Shown here: positions 4,125 to 11,600 of the stretch, piece after piece | Layout of the letters: each line of letters begins with the position of its first letter | Position numbering within the stretch: the stretch's first letter is position 1 | DNA from: Thermodesulfovibrio sp. 3907-1M | GTDB lineage: Bacteria > Nitrospirota > Thermodesulfovibrionia > Thermodesulfovibrionales > Thermodesulfovibrionaceae | Assembly (NCBI RefSeq): GCF_040450955.1 | Contig: NZ_CP144373.1 | Span: 1,096,486-1,160,485 of the forward strand | Length of the DNA stretch: 64,000 nucleotides | Direction of reading: 5' to 3' | Program-made: the position numbers and the translations under genes | Notes under the pieces: model-generated | Database searches by the model: none | Told to the model about the DNA's origin: nothing | Seen by the model: the letters and a program-made list of their open reading frames with translations, nothing else

Positions 4125-5549
4125 ATGCCTGAAGCATCTAAATCAAAACTTAAACAGCCAAAAGGTCTTTATAGAAAATTTCTTATTGTATTCAATCTGT
4201 CCATTGTTCTTTCAACCATTATTCTTGTTTCTGGACTTATAATTACCGGATACGAAATTTATGGGGAAGAATTTATTATGAAAAAAATGGGAATTATAAA
4301 TAGTCTATTAAAATTTGCCCCTGTTATGGGAGTATTTGCCTTGGCATTGATAGGGATATCAACAGCCAATGTTTTATGGTTTAGAAAACAGATTATATCT
4401 CCCCTTTCAACGATTGAAGATGCGGTGGAAGCTATAAGAAAAGGAAATTTTGAAAAAAGAATAAAATTGAAAACAGGTGATGAATTTGAAAAAATTGCAG
4501 ATGCTTTTAATCAAATGATGGATAAACTTTCTACATTAATTCAGACAGAAGAACAAAGAAAAGAGATGCAGAACAATATTATAAAGTTCTTACAGATAAT
4601 GACTCAGGCAGCGGAAGGAGACCTCACGCAGAAAGCAGAAGTCACACCAGATGTTTTTGGTTCTCTGGCAGATGCCTTTAATCTTATGACAGATGGATTG
4701 AGTGAACTTGTAAGAGAAGTTAAAAACACAGCAGAGGATGTAGGACAGAAAAGTAACATTCTAAATGAAATAATTCAAAAATTACAGACAGGCGCAGAAA
4801 TACAAAAACAGGAGATTGAAAAAATAGTATCCCTTATTGAAGATGCTTCAGACATTGCTTTACAGACAAGAGATAAAACCTCTGCTGCAACAGATGTTTC
4901 AAAAGAAGCCATTGATGCAATCCTGAAGGGTAATGAAATTGTTACAGAGACAATTAACAGCATGCAACTAATCAGGACAGCTGTTCAGGGAATAAATAGA
5001 AGAATGAAGCTTTTTTCGGAAAAATTAATGGAGATAGGAACAATTTCAACAATAATTAGTGATATTGCAAACAGAACAAATCTTCTTGCTCTAAATGCTT
5101 CAATTGAAGCTGCAAGAGCGGGTGAGGAGGGTAAAGGATTTGTCGTTATTGCTGAAGAAATAAGAACTTTATCTGAAAAGACAGCTAAATCTTCAAAAAA
5201 CATTGCAGACATTATTACAGCAATTCAGGAAGAAGCTACAGCAGTTACAAAAAATCTTGAAGAGGAAACAAACTATGTTGAAATGGGAACAGACATGGTA
5301 AATCAAACAACAGAAATATTTGAAAAGATTGATTCAATCATAAAGAGAATAAGACAAGTTATAGATGACATTAATGAATACACTATGAAACAAAAAGAAA
5401 TAACAGATAAGCAGGTAAGTTCAGCTCAAAAAGTGAAAGAAGTGACTGAAAATGTTTATGAAATAAGCCATGAGCTTACTGACATATCTCGTTCTCTATC
5501 AGATACTTCAAAAGAATTCGTTAATGTAACTGAAAAATTTAGAGTTTAA
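4125..5549 (+). CDS. Chemoreceptor with minimal periplasmic loop and tandem HAMP
   Basis: A 474-residue inner-membrane signalling protein. TM1 is about 18-42 and TM2 about 63-86, leaving only about 20 residues outside the membrane, too few for a ligand domain. A HAMP follows at about 87-140, then a second HAMP-like unit at about 150-200 ([20 protein letters not shown]). The MCP signalling domain at about 205-474 has the conserved tip [20 protein letters not shown] (314-333). RBS AGGAGG precedes the ATG. It is convergent with, and overlaps by 4 bases, the cheA hybrid gene, so it most likely feeds that kinase. It may receive input from the Cache-HAMP protein at 9844-10974. Confidence 0.92.
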
Positions 5550-7786
5550 AGCGATTCTGAATAAATAAGGCGATTAAGAATCTGCTCCTGTATGGCTTTT
5601 TCATCAAAAGGCTTTACAATATATCCATCTGCTCCCAGTGCAATGGCTTTTTCTTCATGTTTTTTTGTTCCTCTTGAAGTAAGAACTATTATTGGTAAAT
5701 TTTTAAATTTTGGATTTTTTCTTACTCTGCTGATAAGTTCATAGCCGTGCATTACAGGCATTTCAAGGTCAGTTACTACGAGGTCAATTTTTTTTCTTTC
5801 CAGTAAATTTAAAGCTTCAGCCCCGTCTTTTGCAGTGTACACTTTCAGTTTTTTATCCTCAAGAATACTTTGTAAGCTCTTTCTCACACTTATAGAGTCA
5901 TCCACAATCAGGACAGAACCTTTGTATGTAAAAGGCTCTGTAATTTTCTCAGGCAATGGGGTTGTAAATATAAACTCTTCTTCAAATAGCTTCAAGGGAT
6001 CAATTACATATCTTGGAGAGCCTTTGCCAGATATAAAATAGCCAAGATATTGAGTTAATCCCTCAAGAAATTTTCCAAAACTATGAACTGTTGCTTCCTC
6101 GTGTCCCAGAATTTCTTCAACAATAAGTCCTTTTCTTATTCCTGAAAAATTAAAAACAACTATAAACCCTTTTTCAATTTTTTTACCGTTGACAGAGAAA
6201 AAAACTTCTGAAAATACTTTCAGAGGAATAATTCTATTTTTATGATTAATCTTTCTTTCTATGATTGCCTGCGGAAAGTCCTCCAGTGTTAAAATTTCTT
6301 CAATATAGTTGATGGGTAGAGCAAAATCCAAATTGTGGGAAGTAAATACTAAAAGATTGCTTATAGTTAATGATTGCGGGATTTTTATTACAAAATTCGT
6401 TTCTTTATCAAGCTTTGAAGAGACTTCTATTGTGCCTTTAAGTTTTGAGATTGCTGTCTTAACAATATTAAGTCCTATGCCCCTTCCACTCTGGAAATCT
6501 AACTCTTCTGCAGTGGAAAAACCTGGAGCAAATATGTAAGATAGAATTTCTTCTTTTGAAACAAAGGGAGCATATTCAGGAGTAATAAATTTTTTCTGAA
6601 CAGCTATTCTTTTCACTTTATCAATATCTATTCCTCTACCGTCATCTTTGATATTTATTACAATATATTTCCCTTCTTTTTGTACATTAATTTGTATGTG
6701 ACCTGTCTGCTCTTTTCCTTTTCTTATTCTTTCTTGAGGATACTCAATTCCATGTTGTACAGCATTGCGAAGAATATGAAGGATTGGCTCATACAGTAAA
6801 TCAAAAATTGGCTTGTCAATTTTTGTTTCCGCTCCTTTAATCTCTATTTCAATAATTTTTCCGTGAGCCTTTGCTATGTCTTTCACGGCTTCAGAAAGCC
6901 TGTGCAAAAGCTTTCCAATTGGTATCATTCTTATCTCAATCAGGCTGTCTTTTAAATAGTTGATTTCTTTGTTAAGAGATTTGAAGTGATATGAAAGATT
7001 TTCAGAAAAACTAAACAATGAATTTATACCCTCTGTTATATCATTTGTTATCTCCTGAATTTTTCTTAAAAAAATATGGTATTCATCATAACGGTCAAAT
7101 TCAAGATCGCTGAAGTCAGCAAAAAAACTGTCTATAACTTTTTCATCTTTATTTTGAGTGGATAAGTAGTATCTGTCTGAAAAATCAGTTATTTCCTTTA
7201 GAAGTCTTTTTCCGCTGTTGTGTATTTCTTCTACAATGTTTAATAGTTCTTTTTCTTTGTCCATTATCGTATTTTTCTGGACAAGAGTTTCTCCTAAAGA
7301 AGTAAGAATATGGTCAATTACTTCAAGTCCAACTCTGACAGTATTACTAACAGGAACGGTTTTAAAAACTGCAGGCTCGCATTCTTCAACAAATGCTTGT
7401 TTTTTATGGAGAATATTTTCAATTGATTTTATAAATTTCTCATCAAGCTCGCTTTTTTCCTCGCCTGTCTCGTGTATTTCATTTATAAATCCCACTATTG
7501 CATCAATAGCTTTTTTAATGTGGTAAATAAGAGAATTTTCATAGTTTATCTCTTCATTCAGGAGAGCTTCAAAAAGGTCTTCAAGGCGATGTGATAGTGT
7601 GGCAATTTTATTGAATTTAACGATTGAAGCAGAACCTTTTAGAGTGTGAGTTGCTCTGAAGAGGCTTTCTATGGTTTCTCTGTTGTATCCTTTAGTTTCA
7701 AGCTCCTCTATACCTTCAATTAAGGTATTTACATGTTCTTCTGCTTCCAGTAAAAAATATTTTATAAGCTCAGATTTATCTATCAT
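5546..7786 (-). CDS. CheA-type histidine kinase fused to a receiver domain
   Basis: Chemosensory kinase hybrid, 746 residues. An Hpt domain at the N-terminus has phospho-acceptor His47 in [10 protein letters not shown] long helical region without a recognisable P2 domain spans about 130-285. The HATPase has N-box Asn341 (LRNAVQHG), G1 DDGRGI (381-386) and G2 GRGIGL (434-439). A CheW-like domain spans about 465-605 and a receiver about 624-740, with D629/D630, phospho-acceptor D673 and K725. The lack of P2 and the C-terminal receiver resemble ChpA/PilL and cyanobacterial Hik36-type kinases, not flagellar CheA. It is the last gene of the minus-strand operon 11529-5546, preceded by cheW after a short gap. 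Confidence 0.93.
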
Positions 7787-7801
7787 CTTTTCTGAGTTTT
7801 G

Positions 7802-8251
7802 TCATTTTTCCTGTTTCCCTATAGTGGTTTCACCAGGAAAACCACTCTTTAAATTTTCCTCGGGTTTTTGATAACTCACTTTAAGTTGTTCAAATAATTT
7901 TTCAGGCTCAATAAAATCTTCAATAGGTATATCGGAGTCAAAACTAACAAAAAAGGGCGTAATATCCGATAAAATTCCTATTTTTTCACCTTTTACTTCA
8001 ATAACGAGCAGTTTATTATCAGAATAGTTTAATCTTTCAATATTGTAAATCTTTGCCAGATCCACAGCAGGAATTATTTTGCCTCTTACAGGTAAAGCTC
8101 CAACAATGTAATCAGGAGCTCCTGGAATAGGGAATATTCGCGTAATATCCAGAATCTGAACAACGCTTTCTTTCGGGACAAGAAACTCTCTTTCCCCTAC
8201 GCCTAAGACACAATAGGATTTTTCTGTTTTTTCTTTTATTTCTTCAGACAT
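7802..8251 (-). CDS. cheW: CheW-like coupling protein
   Basis: A 149-residue CheW/P5 domain protein that couples receptors to CheA. Family pattern visible: VPKESVVQILDITRIFPIPGAPDYIVGALPVRGKIIPAVDL split over about 22-63, with the typical G-x-x-x-R-G-x-x-x-P-x-x-D. Its start overlaps the upstream receiver gene by 16 bases, which suggests translational coupling. The C-terminal 30 residues are a low-conservation tail. Confidence 0.9.
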   Translation of the reverse strand: MSEEIKEKTEKSYCVLGVGEREFLVPKESVVQILDITRIFPIPGAPDYIVGALPVRGKIIPAVDLAKIYNIERLNYSDNKLLVIEVKGEKIGILSDITPFFVSFDSDIPIEDFIEPEKLFEQLKVSYQKPEENLKSGFPGETTIGKQEK

Positions 8252-8601
8252 CTCTTTATAGCCACCAAAAGATCAATTGGTTCAAAGGGTTTTGTAATGT
8301 ATTCATCAGCTCCCTGCTGCTTTCCCCAGAATTTATCAGCTTCTTCTTTTTTAGAGCTAACAATGATTACAGGTATATCTTTTGTTTTTTCATTTTTCTT
8401 TATCTCTCTACAAATTTGAAAGCCATTTTTTTTAGGCATGACCACATCTAAAATAACCAGATCAAAATTTTCTTTTTTTATCAATTCTTCAGCTTCCTCA
8501 CCATCTTTCGCAAAAAAAAGCTCATATTCACCTTCTTTAAGAATGGACTCAATATATTTTGCATCTGTAACCGAATCTTCTGCAACAAGAATTCTATGCA
8601 T
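8236..8601 (-). CDS. Single-domain response regulator (CheY/PilH-like)
   Basis: A 121-residue stand-alone receiver domain. The acidic pocket is E8/D9, phospho-acceptor D52 is in VILDVVMPKKNG, the conserved Thr/Ser position is VSS and the conserved Lys is in YITKPF. It has no output domain, so it probably interacts with a motor or acts as a phosphate sink. It is positioned between the REC-DUF4388 gene and cheW in the same operon. Confidence 0.92.
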   Translation of the reverse strand: MHRILVAEDSVTDAKYIESILKEGEYELFFAKDGEEAEELIKKENFDLVILDVVMPKKNGFQICREIKKNEKTKDIPVIIVSSKKEEADKFWGKQQGADEYITKPFEPIDLLVAIKRCLKK

Positions 8602-8635
8602 TTTAAGCTTCCCTTAAATTTATATTATATCATTT

Positions 8636-9832
8636 TCATTTTTCTTTAAAAAGCTCTAATGGATTATAGCCTGTCTTATTCAGTAACCTCATGTCTGACA
8701 AATCTTTCTTTTCAAAAATAAAGTTTACATTTTGAAGATTCTTTAAAGAATTCAATGCTTCAATGGTAATGTCCCTGATCTCTTCTTGAGAAAGTTCATT
8801 TAATAGTTTATCACCAATTTTTTGTTTCTGAAGGTTTGAGATTCCATAGATAATCTTTCCACCCATAAATAGAAATTCGTATGCTACTGCATTACTGTAA
8901 GCAGAAAAGATACCATTTAAACCATTAGAATTAATTAGAGCAAAAATTTCCTGAATTTTAAAGAGATTTAAATTGCCAGAGAGAATCACAGAAGAATCTT
9001 TTATCAAACCGTATTTTTTTAATACTCCTTCAACAGAGCTTTCAAATCGTTCATAAAAGCTATTAAATTTGTTCTCTATTAATTTTTCCAGAATGGTTAA
9101 ATCCAAAGCAGGCTTAACTTCTTCAATTTCTGTTTTTGGAGGCTCTTTCAATAAATCCTGGGCAGGTTTAACTTCTTGTGCTCCAAAGCTTTCCTCTTTT
9201 TCCAGCACCTCCAGTTCTGGGAGTTCAACTTCTGCTGGCTCAAACAAATCCTGTGTTTTTTGCATTGGTTCAGGCTTTTCAAATATTTCTTCCTTTAATT
9301 CAATTTCTTTTGTTAAATCAATCTCCTTCTCTTCAATGGAGAATACTTCTTCTGTTTCAGGTAATACAATAGGCTCTGTTTCTTGCAGTTCCTTTATTTC
9401 TGCTTCCGGTGTTTCATAAGTAAAAACAGGAATTTCTTCAGTGATCTCTTTAACTTCCATCGCTTTACTTAAGACTTGATTGATTTTGTCTACCAGGTCC
9501 TCAGATTTAAAAGGTTTTATAAAATAATCCAGAATTCCATATTTTTCAATAAATGTCTGTCCCACTGTCTCACCTTTCCCAGTGATCAGAATAATGGGAA
9601 TATCTTTAAGAGTTTCATTCTCCCTTATGAGTTTGCAAACCTGAGAACCTGTCATCTTGGGCATTATAAAGTCAACTAAAATTAGATCAGGCTTGATATC
9701 TTCAGCAAGTCTTAATCCTTCTTCTCCATCACTCGCTGTATAGACTTCATATCCAGCTTCCTGCAAAGAAACCTCTGCAAGTTTTCTTACAAGAGGGCTA
9801 TCATCCATTACTAATATTTTTTCTCCTGCCAT
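8636..9832 (-). CDS. Response regulator with acidic linker and DUF4388/PATAN-like domain
   Basis: 398 residues. The N-terminal receiver (about 5-118) has D10/D11, phospho-acceptor D54 (LILVDFIMPKM) and Lys in YFIKPF. Residues about 125-240 are a very Glu/Pro-rich linker. The C-terminal part from about 282 begins with a DUF4388-like pattern, SGNLNLFKIQEIFALINSNG, then a G-x-I-x-x-G-I strand. DUF4388/PATAN-type domains occur in cyanobacterial PatA-type response regulators linked to type IV pili. The architecture is therefore PatA-like, and a role in controlling surface motility is inferred. Confidence 0.82.
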   Translation of the reverse strand: MAGEKILVMDDSPLVRKLAEVSLQEAGYEVYTASDGEEGLRLAEDIKPDLILVDFIMPKMTGSQVCKLIRENETLKDIPIILITGKGETVGQTFIEKYGILDYFIKPFKSEDLVDKINQVLSKAMEVKEITEEIPVFTYETPEAEIKELQETEPIVLPETEEVFSIEEKEIDLTKEIELKEEIFEKPEPMQKTQDLFEPAEVELPELEVLEKEESFGAQEVKPAQDLLKEPPKTEIEEVKPALDLTILEKLIENKFNSFYERFESSVEGVLKKYGLIKDSSVILSGNLNLFKIQEIFALINSNGLNGIFSAYSNAVAYEFLFMGGKIIYGISNLQKQKIGDKLLNELSQEEIRDITIEALNSLKNLQNVNFIFEKKDLSDMRLLNKTGYNPLELFKEK

Positions 9833-9843
9833 TTTTTTACTCC

Positions 9844-10974
9844 TTATTCAAGAAGTTTTTTCATTGTTATACGCATTCTTTCCACAGCCCTTGCCAGTGT
9901 AGCTATCTCTCCACGAGCATCTTTAATCTCTACTTTTTGAGATGTTTTACCCATAGATATTTCATCTGTAACCTTTGTAAGTGCAACTATAGGATTTATT
10001 ACATATTTATTCATGCCATATCCAATTAAAAGAGCTATTACTATGAGCATTACAATATAAACTAAAACATTTATACCAAGAATTGTAAAAACTTTAACTG
10101 GGCTGAGAATTCTTTCTTTCACAAGATATATAAAACCTATGATTTTACCAGAGAAATCCTTAAGAGGGCTATAAGCAACAATATATTCTTTACCTGCATA
10201 AGAAACCACTTCAGTATAGTATCTGCCTTTTGATTGAGCTGCCCTTTTTAAAGAAGCCTCAGAGATAAACAGTTTCGGATCTGGCTGAGTAAAATAAAGA
10301 CAAACCCATTGACCAAAAGTATGTTTTACATCTTTTAAGCCAGGCCAGCCAGTGAGCAAATCCTTGTAAATAGCAACTCCTGTATCAGCATTTATGGCTT
10401 TTTTAATCTGATCAATCTCCGTCTTCAATCCACCGCCAAAATCAACGCTTCCTACAAATTCACCTTTGTAAAAAATTGGTTCAACTCCTCTTAACCCAAC
10501 TCCTCCTAAACCAATCTCAATGCCCCTTGTACCTTTATGAATTGTTTGTACCTGCACTACAGTTTTACGCTCCTTTGAGATATCATCACCAAAATGACTA
10601 AGATCATGAAGTCGCACAAGAGAAACTGCAGGAGGTATGTGAAAGTGAAATTGAGCAAGACCAAAGTTTTCTTTTAGAGAATTAAAAGCAGGCAGGAATT
10701 TGTCTATTAAGCGGTTTCTGTCTTTTTTATTAACAGCTTCCTGAACATCTGACATCTGGGCCACTAAGTTAGCCATCTGTTGATAATGAATCGTTGCAGT
10801 TTCAAGTAAAAGCTGAGCAGTGTTAATTGATGCTTCAATGTTTCTGTTTTCTTCATCTTTTAAAAGATTTACCTGCATGATATAGTTGAAAACAACTAAT
10901 ATGCTCATTCCAGCAATTAAAGTTGCTAAAAGAGGAAGAGCTATTCCTGTTCTTAATCCAAATTCTATTTTCAT
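9844..10974 (-). CDS. Double-Cache sensor with terminal HAMP and no output domain
   Basis: A 376-residue inner-membrane protein. TM1 is about 9-31. A large extracytoplasmic region (about 32-295) has dCache_3-like features (FHIPPAVSLVRLHDLSHFGD and the glycine-rich GIEIGLGGVGLRGVEPIF). TM2 is about 297-321 and a HAMP about 322-376. The protein stops right after HAMP helix 2, with no MCP, kinase, cyclase or other output module. The stop codon is followed by a normal 11-base gap to the next gene, so this does not look like a frameshift. Within the chemosensory operon it probably senses a ligand and passes the signal through HAMP contacts with another protein. Confidence 0.85.
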   Translation of the reverse strand: MKIEFGLRTGIALPLLATLIAGMSILVVFNYIMQVNLLKDEENRNIEASINTAQLLLETATIHYQQMANLVAQMSDVQEAVNKKDRNRLIDKFLPAFNSLKENFGLAQFHFHIPPAVSLVRLHDLSHFGDDISKERKTVVQVQTIHKGTRGIEIGLGGVGLRGVEPIFYKGEFVGSVDFGGGLKTEIDQIKKAINADTGVAIYKDLLTGWPGLKDVKHTFGQWVCLYFTQPDPKLFISEASLKRAAQSKGRYYTEVVSYAGKEYIVAYSPLKDFSGKIIGFIYLVKERILSPVKVFTILGINVLVYIVMLIVIALLIGYGMNKYVINPIVALTKVTDEISMGKTSQKVEIKDARGEIATLARAVERMRITMKKLLE

Positions 10975-11529
10975 TTATAAACCTCCTAAAATTTTATTTA
11001 CCTCGTTTAAAAACTCTCTTTTTGATTGAGGGTCTTCTATCTCTTCCTTTAACATATCAATTAAATTGAGAAAATCCTCTTTTGATGGTGGCTGGGAAGG
11101 AACCCATTTTTCATTGATATATTTTTCTGTAATTTTTCCTCCAATGGGACCAATTTGCCTGATTAATGCAGTTTTTATGTCATCTTTTATTTTTTGAAAC
11201 TCTGAAGCCTGAACAAAAGAAGAATCTGAGGAAATTACAAATTTGTCCAACTTTTGCAAATTTTTTATTATATCTTCTGTTGAAGGAATATCATTGCTTG
11301 TTATATCAATTGAAATTTGAGGAATAAAATTATATGAAACTGGCTGTCTGAAAGATATTTCATCCAAACATCGTCTACCCTTTTGAAAGCCAAAGGATAT
11401 ATGATAGATTTCTCCATTTTTAAGGTAAAACTTGAGCAGATTTTTTTCTGATGAAAAATTTACAGTAAGCAGTCCTGTGCTTTTTATTTTAAATAAATTC
11501 TCAATAATATCTGCAAGATTTTTTTTCAT
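10975..11529 (-). CDS. DUF4388-type protein, first gene of chemosensory operon
   Basis: 184 residues. The N-terminal half has a DUF4388/PATAN-like layout: LADIIENLFKIKSTGLLTV, a strand, then FYLKNGEIYHISFG. The C-terminal half has the conserved IGPIGGKI motif found C-terminal to DUF4388 in other signalling proteins (DUF8082-like, from memory), then a helical tail. It is a soluble protein with no enzymatic motif, probably an adaptor. Its stop abuts the next start at 10974. The ATG lies 8 bases after the predicted -10 box and has no clear Shine-Dalgarno. Confidence 0.7.
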   Translation of the reverse strand: MKKNLADIIENLFKIKSTGLLTVNFSSEKNLLKFYLKNGEIYHISFGFQKGRRCLDEISFRQPVSYNFIPQISIDITSNDIPSTEDIIKNLQKLDKFVISSDSSFVQASEFQKIKDDIKTALIRQIGPIGGKITEKYINEKWVPSQPPSKEDFLNLIDMLKEEIEDPQSKREFLNEVNKILGGL

Positions 11530-11537
11530 AAAGCTCT

Positions 11538-11566
11538 ATAAAAGAATAGCAAATTACTCCTGTCAA
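11538..11566 (-). promoter_or_regulatory. Promoter of chemosensory operon
   Basis: On the minus strand TTGACA (11566-11561), a 17-base spacer and TTTTAT (11543-11538). The ATG at 11529 begins 8 bases after the -10 box, so the message would have almost no leader. Confidence 0.55.
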
Positions 11567-11600
11567 TATCAAGACCTGGGATAATTAATAGATAGAATCT

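Follow-up and report, generated by a model that had tools for sequence, protein, structure and literature searches.

HAMP domains are relays between a sensor and an output. Several described systems are close to the locus studied here. Af1503, an archaeal protein of Archaeoglobus fulgidus, is a membrane HAMP protein without a cytoplasmic output domain, and the portion of the source available to us names no partner for it (PMC3585426). In Pseudomonas azotoformans, an sCache_heme (DUF3365/Tll0287) HAMP protein is described, in the accessible portion of a recent preprint, as a dimer with two transmembrane (TM) helices, a periplasmic c-heme Cache domain and a cytoplasmic HAMP domain; the same portion assigns Tll0287 to the heme Caches and describes NO binding by a TM-HAMP Tll0287 member from this species (PMC12889525). 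In Campylobacter jejuni, the sensor and signalling parts of a receptor are carried by two proteins, CetA (TM hairpin-HAMP-MCP) and CetB, a PAS protein at the membrane face (PMC2628428). Finally, PixE and PixG of Synechocystis carry a PATAN-type domain beside a REC domain in a chemosensory system controlling type IV pili; PixE binds PilB1, and in cyanobacteria PATAN regulators target the motors of type IV pili (PMC7690835).

Organization of the che locus

The window, i.e. the whole stretch of 64,000 nucleotides that was analysed, comes from the complete 1.94-Mb genome of Thermodesulfovibrio sp. 3907-1M (NZ_CP144373.1, positions 1,096,486 to 1,160,485). It carries a che operon on the minus strand encoding, from 5' to 3', a stand-alone DUF4388 protein, a receptor without output domain (hereafter outputless), a REC-DUF4388 response regulator, CheY, CheW and a hybrid CheA (Table 1). 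There is no gap (0 bp) between the DUF4388 and receptor genes, and the ribosome site is strong. An earlier note on this DNA described the receptor and the methyl-accepting chemotaxis protein (MCP) as products of adjacent genes. Both genes do belong to the same cluster, but they are 4.3 kb apart and the MCP gene is on the opposite strand, tail to tail with cheA, the two stop codons overlapping at 5546-5549. The MCP gene is convergent with the che operon and lies outside it. In many members of the genus, a ThiE-like gene (about 200 aa; recognized by eye from the sequence) is found between accC and the DUF4388/receptor gene (e.g. L076:12582-13196); the window lacks it at 11530-11600.

Table 1. 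Features of the che locus (positions in the window)
Feature	Coordinates	Strand	Evidence
Stand-alone DUF4388 protein, 184 aa	10975..11529	-	Weak Pfam DUF4388 match; 19/20 relatives match; AlphaFold model; pairing with the receptor
Outputless receptor, TM1-periplasmic dCache_3-TM2-HAMP-stop, 376 aa	9844..10974	-	Pfam, NCBIfam, AlphaFold; orthologues in 15/15 other genomes of the genus
C-terminal HAMP domain of the receptor	9847..10020	-	Best-conserved segment of the receptor
Response regulator, REC + long acidic linker + DUF4388, 398 aa	8636..9832	-	Pfam
CheY-like protein, single receiver domain, 121 aa	8236..8601	-	Pfam
CheW-like protein, 149 aa	7802..8251	-	Pfam
CheA hybrid kinase, Hpt, dimerisation, ATPase, CheW, REC, 746 aa	5546..7786	-	Pfam; P2 not found
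MCP, TM hairpin + two HAMPs + full signalling domain, 474 aa	4125..5549	+	Pfam; convergent to the che operon

Some 20 residues separate the two TM helices of the MCP, which also has two HAMP stretches and an MCPsignal match (E = 1.3e-37), as the earlier note had read it. The absence of a P2 domain from the CheA hybrid is likewise borne out: Pfam finds Hpt, a weak dimerisation domain, HATPase, CheW and REC, and no match to P2. PilB/PilT-type ATPases are present in the genome. Under our own working definition, which is not that of the formal che-class profiles, the cluster is Tfp-like, having a CheA without P2 and with REC, a REC-PATAN/DUF4388 regulator (DUF4388 and PATAN domains being presumably related) and T4P-type motor ATPases; the surface-motility type of pathway proposed from the sequence thus fits this gene content. 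The cluster evolves fast in two genomes of the genus, G007 and G015, and in the first of these (L075:7915-10072) the CheY gene is missing and CheA is shortened (582 aa).

A receptor that stops at its HAMP domain

In Pfam, the receptor matches dCache_3 at residues 43-286 (E = 4e-24) and HAMP at residues 322-368 (E = 2.6e-7), and its AlphaFold model (pLDDT 80) terminates with the second HAMP helix (353-375). The claim that this Cache-TM-HAMP protein ends after its HAMP without any output domain stands, since no such domain was found past the HAMP in the 376 residues by Pfam or NCBIfam profiles or in the AlphaFold model. MCPsignal is absent, which sets the protein apart from methyl-accepting chemoreceptors; with an extracytoplasmic part, TM, HAMP and no output domain, it has the architecture of the outputless (Af1503-like) HAMP receptors. 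From the relay role of HAMP it follows that something must read an exposed HAMP end and, as the receptor stops there, that the reader would be a separate protein; on this point we agree with the earlier note.

Among the 11 HAMP genes of the genome, only this one ends after the HAMP. In eight further genomes of the order, the other sensor-TM-HAMP-stop genes, among the matches listed, all came from the same DUF4388-paired families. Four other short HAMP frames, taken as a baseline in these eight genomes, were rejected as outputless receptors: one encodes a kinase, one a GGDEF protein, one an MCP interrupted by masked bases and one a sensorless TM-hairpin HAMP protein.

The receptor and the MCP were both found in the 15 other genomes of the genus, hence in all 16 with that of the window. 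For the 15 aligned receptors, the mean pair identity was 0.55 in the sensor, 0.74 in the HAMP and 0.80 in its last 20 residues. In 5 of the 15 other genomes the receptor is shortened to 274-276 aa: about 100 residues of the outer sensor part are gone and the HAMP is kept. These shortened receptors form one clade (L077 in G004, L078 in G003, L079 in G009, L080 in G013 and L081 in G011).

Pairing of the receptor with a DUF4388 protein

The product of the gene upstream of the receptor gives a weak PF14332 hit with an E-value of 0.019, which does not reach the curated cut-off, and 19 of 20 relatives match (best 3e-5). Its AlphaFold model (pLDDT 87) comprises an N-terminal a/b DUF4388 domain and a C-terminal four-helix domain (residues 102-181) in which an 'IGPIG' motif contains an invariant GP. 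The four-helix domain has no separate Pfam match, and a Foldseek search of the model against the PDB gave no significant match.

We searched 395 Nitrospirota genomes for both genes. The DUF4388 protein was found in all 32 genomes with an outputless receptor and in 3 of the 363 without (Fisher test, 5e-44, genomes being counted regardless of relatedness); these three are G075 and G076, whose cluster MCP carries a Tll0287 sensor, and G361. The receptor searches retained 20 Tll0287-type genes (>235 bits, all open frames <340 aa) and dCache_3-type open frames all of 402 aa or less, the remaining hits exceeding 630 aa. They were independent of DUF4388, except that the dCache profile held four receptors first seen beside a DUF4388 gene. 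With the receptors of the genus genomes included, a same-strand DUF4388 gene is present in the locus for 38 of the 40 receptor genes, and within about 220 bp for 35 of them; the two reading frames share 4 bp in 10 of the 15 genus members holding both. The unpaired receptors are that of G015 (66% complete) and a second copy in G033. This second copy, an outputless Tll0287-HAMP protein (L092:3719-4603), lies near a formate-THF ligase gene. When relatedness was considered, with independent contrasts on the MCP tree, the receptor and DUF4388 changed together in 5.7 of 6 contrasts (P = 0.03).

The pair also exists away from che clusters, at 10-11 loci. These include L145 and L149-L154 (Nitrospirales-like genomes, family f25) as well as L157, L158 and L160, with either gene order; G088 has its pair at L143, together with a CheY gene, and its che cluster elsewhere, at L141. 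Distant DUF4388 relatives detected by the DUF4388 profile only again adjoin sensor-HAMP-stop genes (L156-L160), and in one other family of the phylum (L162-L164) HAMP-stop proteins with an Mcp40H-20 sensor (CxxCH) are encoded beside a very distant DUF4388 protein. The distant cases found by profile were left out of the pairing counts. In G218 (L156:868-7566), a second type of chemosensory operon encodes an outputless dCache_3-HAMP receptor and DUF4388 together with an MCP, CheW, receivers and an EAL protein, and this stretch showed no CheA. The evidence for pairing covers one phylum, Nitrospirota; a plasmid search brought up DUF3365 outputless-like proteins in other phyla and no DUF4388 relative.

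The DUF4388 gene is the only one seen to accompany the receptor in che clusters as well as away from them, and we propose its product as the output partner of the receptor. Two other explanations of the linkage were considered. According to the first, DUF4388 is an adaptor coupling the receptor to the MCP/CheA array, the MCP being an indirect output in the che-linked cases. The array cannot be the general output, since the cassette is also found where no che genes are near. Many lineages nevertheless hold the cassette within a che cluster, and G218 has it in another kind of chemosensory operon that includes MCP and CheW genes; this would suit such an adaptor, which we consider rather unlikely. 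According to the second, the DUF4388 protein serves in localisation or assembly, or else the receptor acts as a ligand sink or takes cytosolic signals. A DUF4388 model without match to a solved fold is compatible with such roles, but the HAMP, a signal relay, is the best-conserved part of the receptor while the sensor changes freely, which fits signalling better than a passive function. This second explanation appears very improbable.

Sensor exchange and phylogeny

The sensors of the HAMP-stop proteins vary (dCache_3, shortened Cache, c-heme Tll0287, Mcp40H-20), while the HAMP-stop end and the DUF4388 partner are constant. In the orthologous che clusters of sister families, the receptor slot holds a Tll0287-like (c-heme, CxxCH)-TM-HAMP-stop protein of about 294 aa. 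In these clusters the MCPs carry sensors of their own (4HB or Cache-like), and the presence of the receptor is thus not bound to that of a sensorless MCP.

A single branch of the DUF4388 tree (support 99/97) divides the copies paired with dCache receptors from those paired with Tll0287 receptors, all dCache-paired copies being on the same side, whether che-linked or alone. The CheA tree holds the genus together, as expected. The split of the DUF4388 tree indicates that the Thermodesulfovibrio che locus carries a cassette type other than that of the sister families. These sequence comparisons suggest that the receptor and DUF4388 genes move and evolve together. The distance correlations were mixed and we take them as weak evidence: within the genus, receptor and DUF4388 distances correlated at 0.82 after correction for CheA (0.83 without the fast-evolving G007; P < 0.001), and in the Tll0287 che clusters the correlation was gone after the same correction.

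Three cluster MCPs have a c-heme Tll0287 sensor of their own (G016, L084:8477-10417; G076, L130:7767-9671; G075, L131:7218-9128). We rejected these Tll0287-MCP proteins as evidence that would assign the outputless sensor to the MCP. In the domain tree, the MCP-fused Tll0287 domains form a clade separate from the outputless ones, so these proteins did not arise by fusion of the two halves.

Relation between the receptor and the MCP

The separation of these domains is one of several observations that bear on the interpretation of the earlier note, in which the receptor and the MCP are the halves of a split chemoreceptor: the Cache-HAMP subunit and the hairpin MCP would join their HAMPs in a mixed complex, the former sensing and the latter signalling to CheA. 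The two proteins have complementary domains within one cluster and occur together throughout the genus, and a hairpin MCP with a separate sensor has a precedent in CetA/CetB (PMC2628428). Yet in nine che clusters an outputless receptor coexists with an MCP equipped with a periplasmic sensor of its own, and each supposed half is kept without the other: the receptor/DUF4388 pair occurs at loci without che or MCP genes nearby, and G055 (100% complete) has a hairpin MCP and no outputless receptor.

The note proposed co-occurrence of the two genes as a check. Over the 43 rows of the MCP tree, a dCache-type receptor is present in the genome for 18 of the 19 hairpin rows against 1 of the 24 others, and G068 and G072 both combine a hairpin MCP with a dCache-HAMP gene. 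This overlap nevertheless comes almost entirely from one clade. Among independent contrasts, G068/G067 fits (the cluster MCP of G067, whose sCache_2-like sensor is broken by an assembly gap, was coded as non-hairpin) and G072/G055 does not. The presence of outputless receptors overall follows the hairpin state of the MCP in only 1 of 6 contrasts, and the dCache type taken alone agrees in 2 of 4. Distances are similarly divided: in the nine full-length genomes of the genus, the HAMP tracks the MCP (0.58, P = 0.0075, CheA-corrected; 0.64 for DUF4388), but for all 15 genus pairs the correlation between the full receptor and the MCP is negative after correction. A mixed receptor-MCP complex is therefore unlikely, and the earlier interpretation is partly supported: the receptor and the gene content of the pathway are as described, and the MCP does not appear to be the missing half.

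Proposed function and comparison with known systems

We consider it moderately probable that the receptor and the DUF4388 protein encoded upstream constitute a two-protein sensor cassette, in which DUF4388 would take the signal from the HAMP. More tentatively, and with somewhat less than even confidence, HAMP-terminated receptors with exchangeable sensors could be a general two-protein system with a dedicated DUF4388 plus helical-domain output, feeding various pathways. The receptor dimer would sense a periplasmic ligand by its Cache domain, which would change the state of the HAMP bundle. The HAMP end would then be read through direct contact by the separate cytosolic DUF4388 and helical-domain protein, and this protein would relay the signal to whichever pathway hosts the cassette. 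Here, the most likely route would lead from the receptor to DUF4388, then to REC-DUF4388 and to type IV pili, in parallel with the MCP-CheA input.

Receptors ending at the HAMP have had no obvious output so far, and a fixed partner gene makes signalling from a HAMP to a separate protein directly testable. The DUF4388 protein family gains a candidate role, and the Tll0287 versions link a likely nitric-oxide sensor to this family.

Like Af1503, the receptor of the window is a membrane HAMP protein lacking a cytoplasmic output domain, with the difference that a conserved partner gene is identified here, where the available portion of the Af1503 source names none (PMC3585426). The P. azotoformans protein has the architecture of the Tll0287 outputless receptors of the sister families; in contrast to it, the window receptor has a dCache_3 sensor and no heme motif, and the portion of the preprint available to us does not mention a DUF4388 partner (PMC12889525). 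The MCP of the window resembles CetA in its TM hairpin-HAMP-MCP organization, whereas CetB differs from the transmembrane Cache-HAMP receptor, whose linkage is to DUF4388 (PMC2628428). Lastly, with a domain presumably related to PATAN beside REC, the REC-DUF4388 regulator and its cluster resemble PixE and PixG and their chemosensory system (PMC7690835), but what pairs with the membrane receptor here is a stand-alone DUF4388 protein that has no REC and ends in a helical domain.
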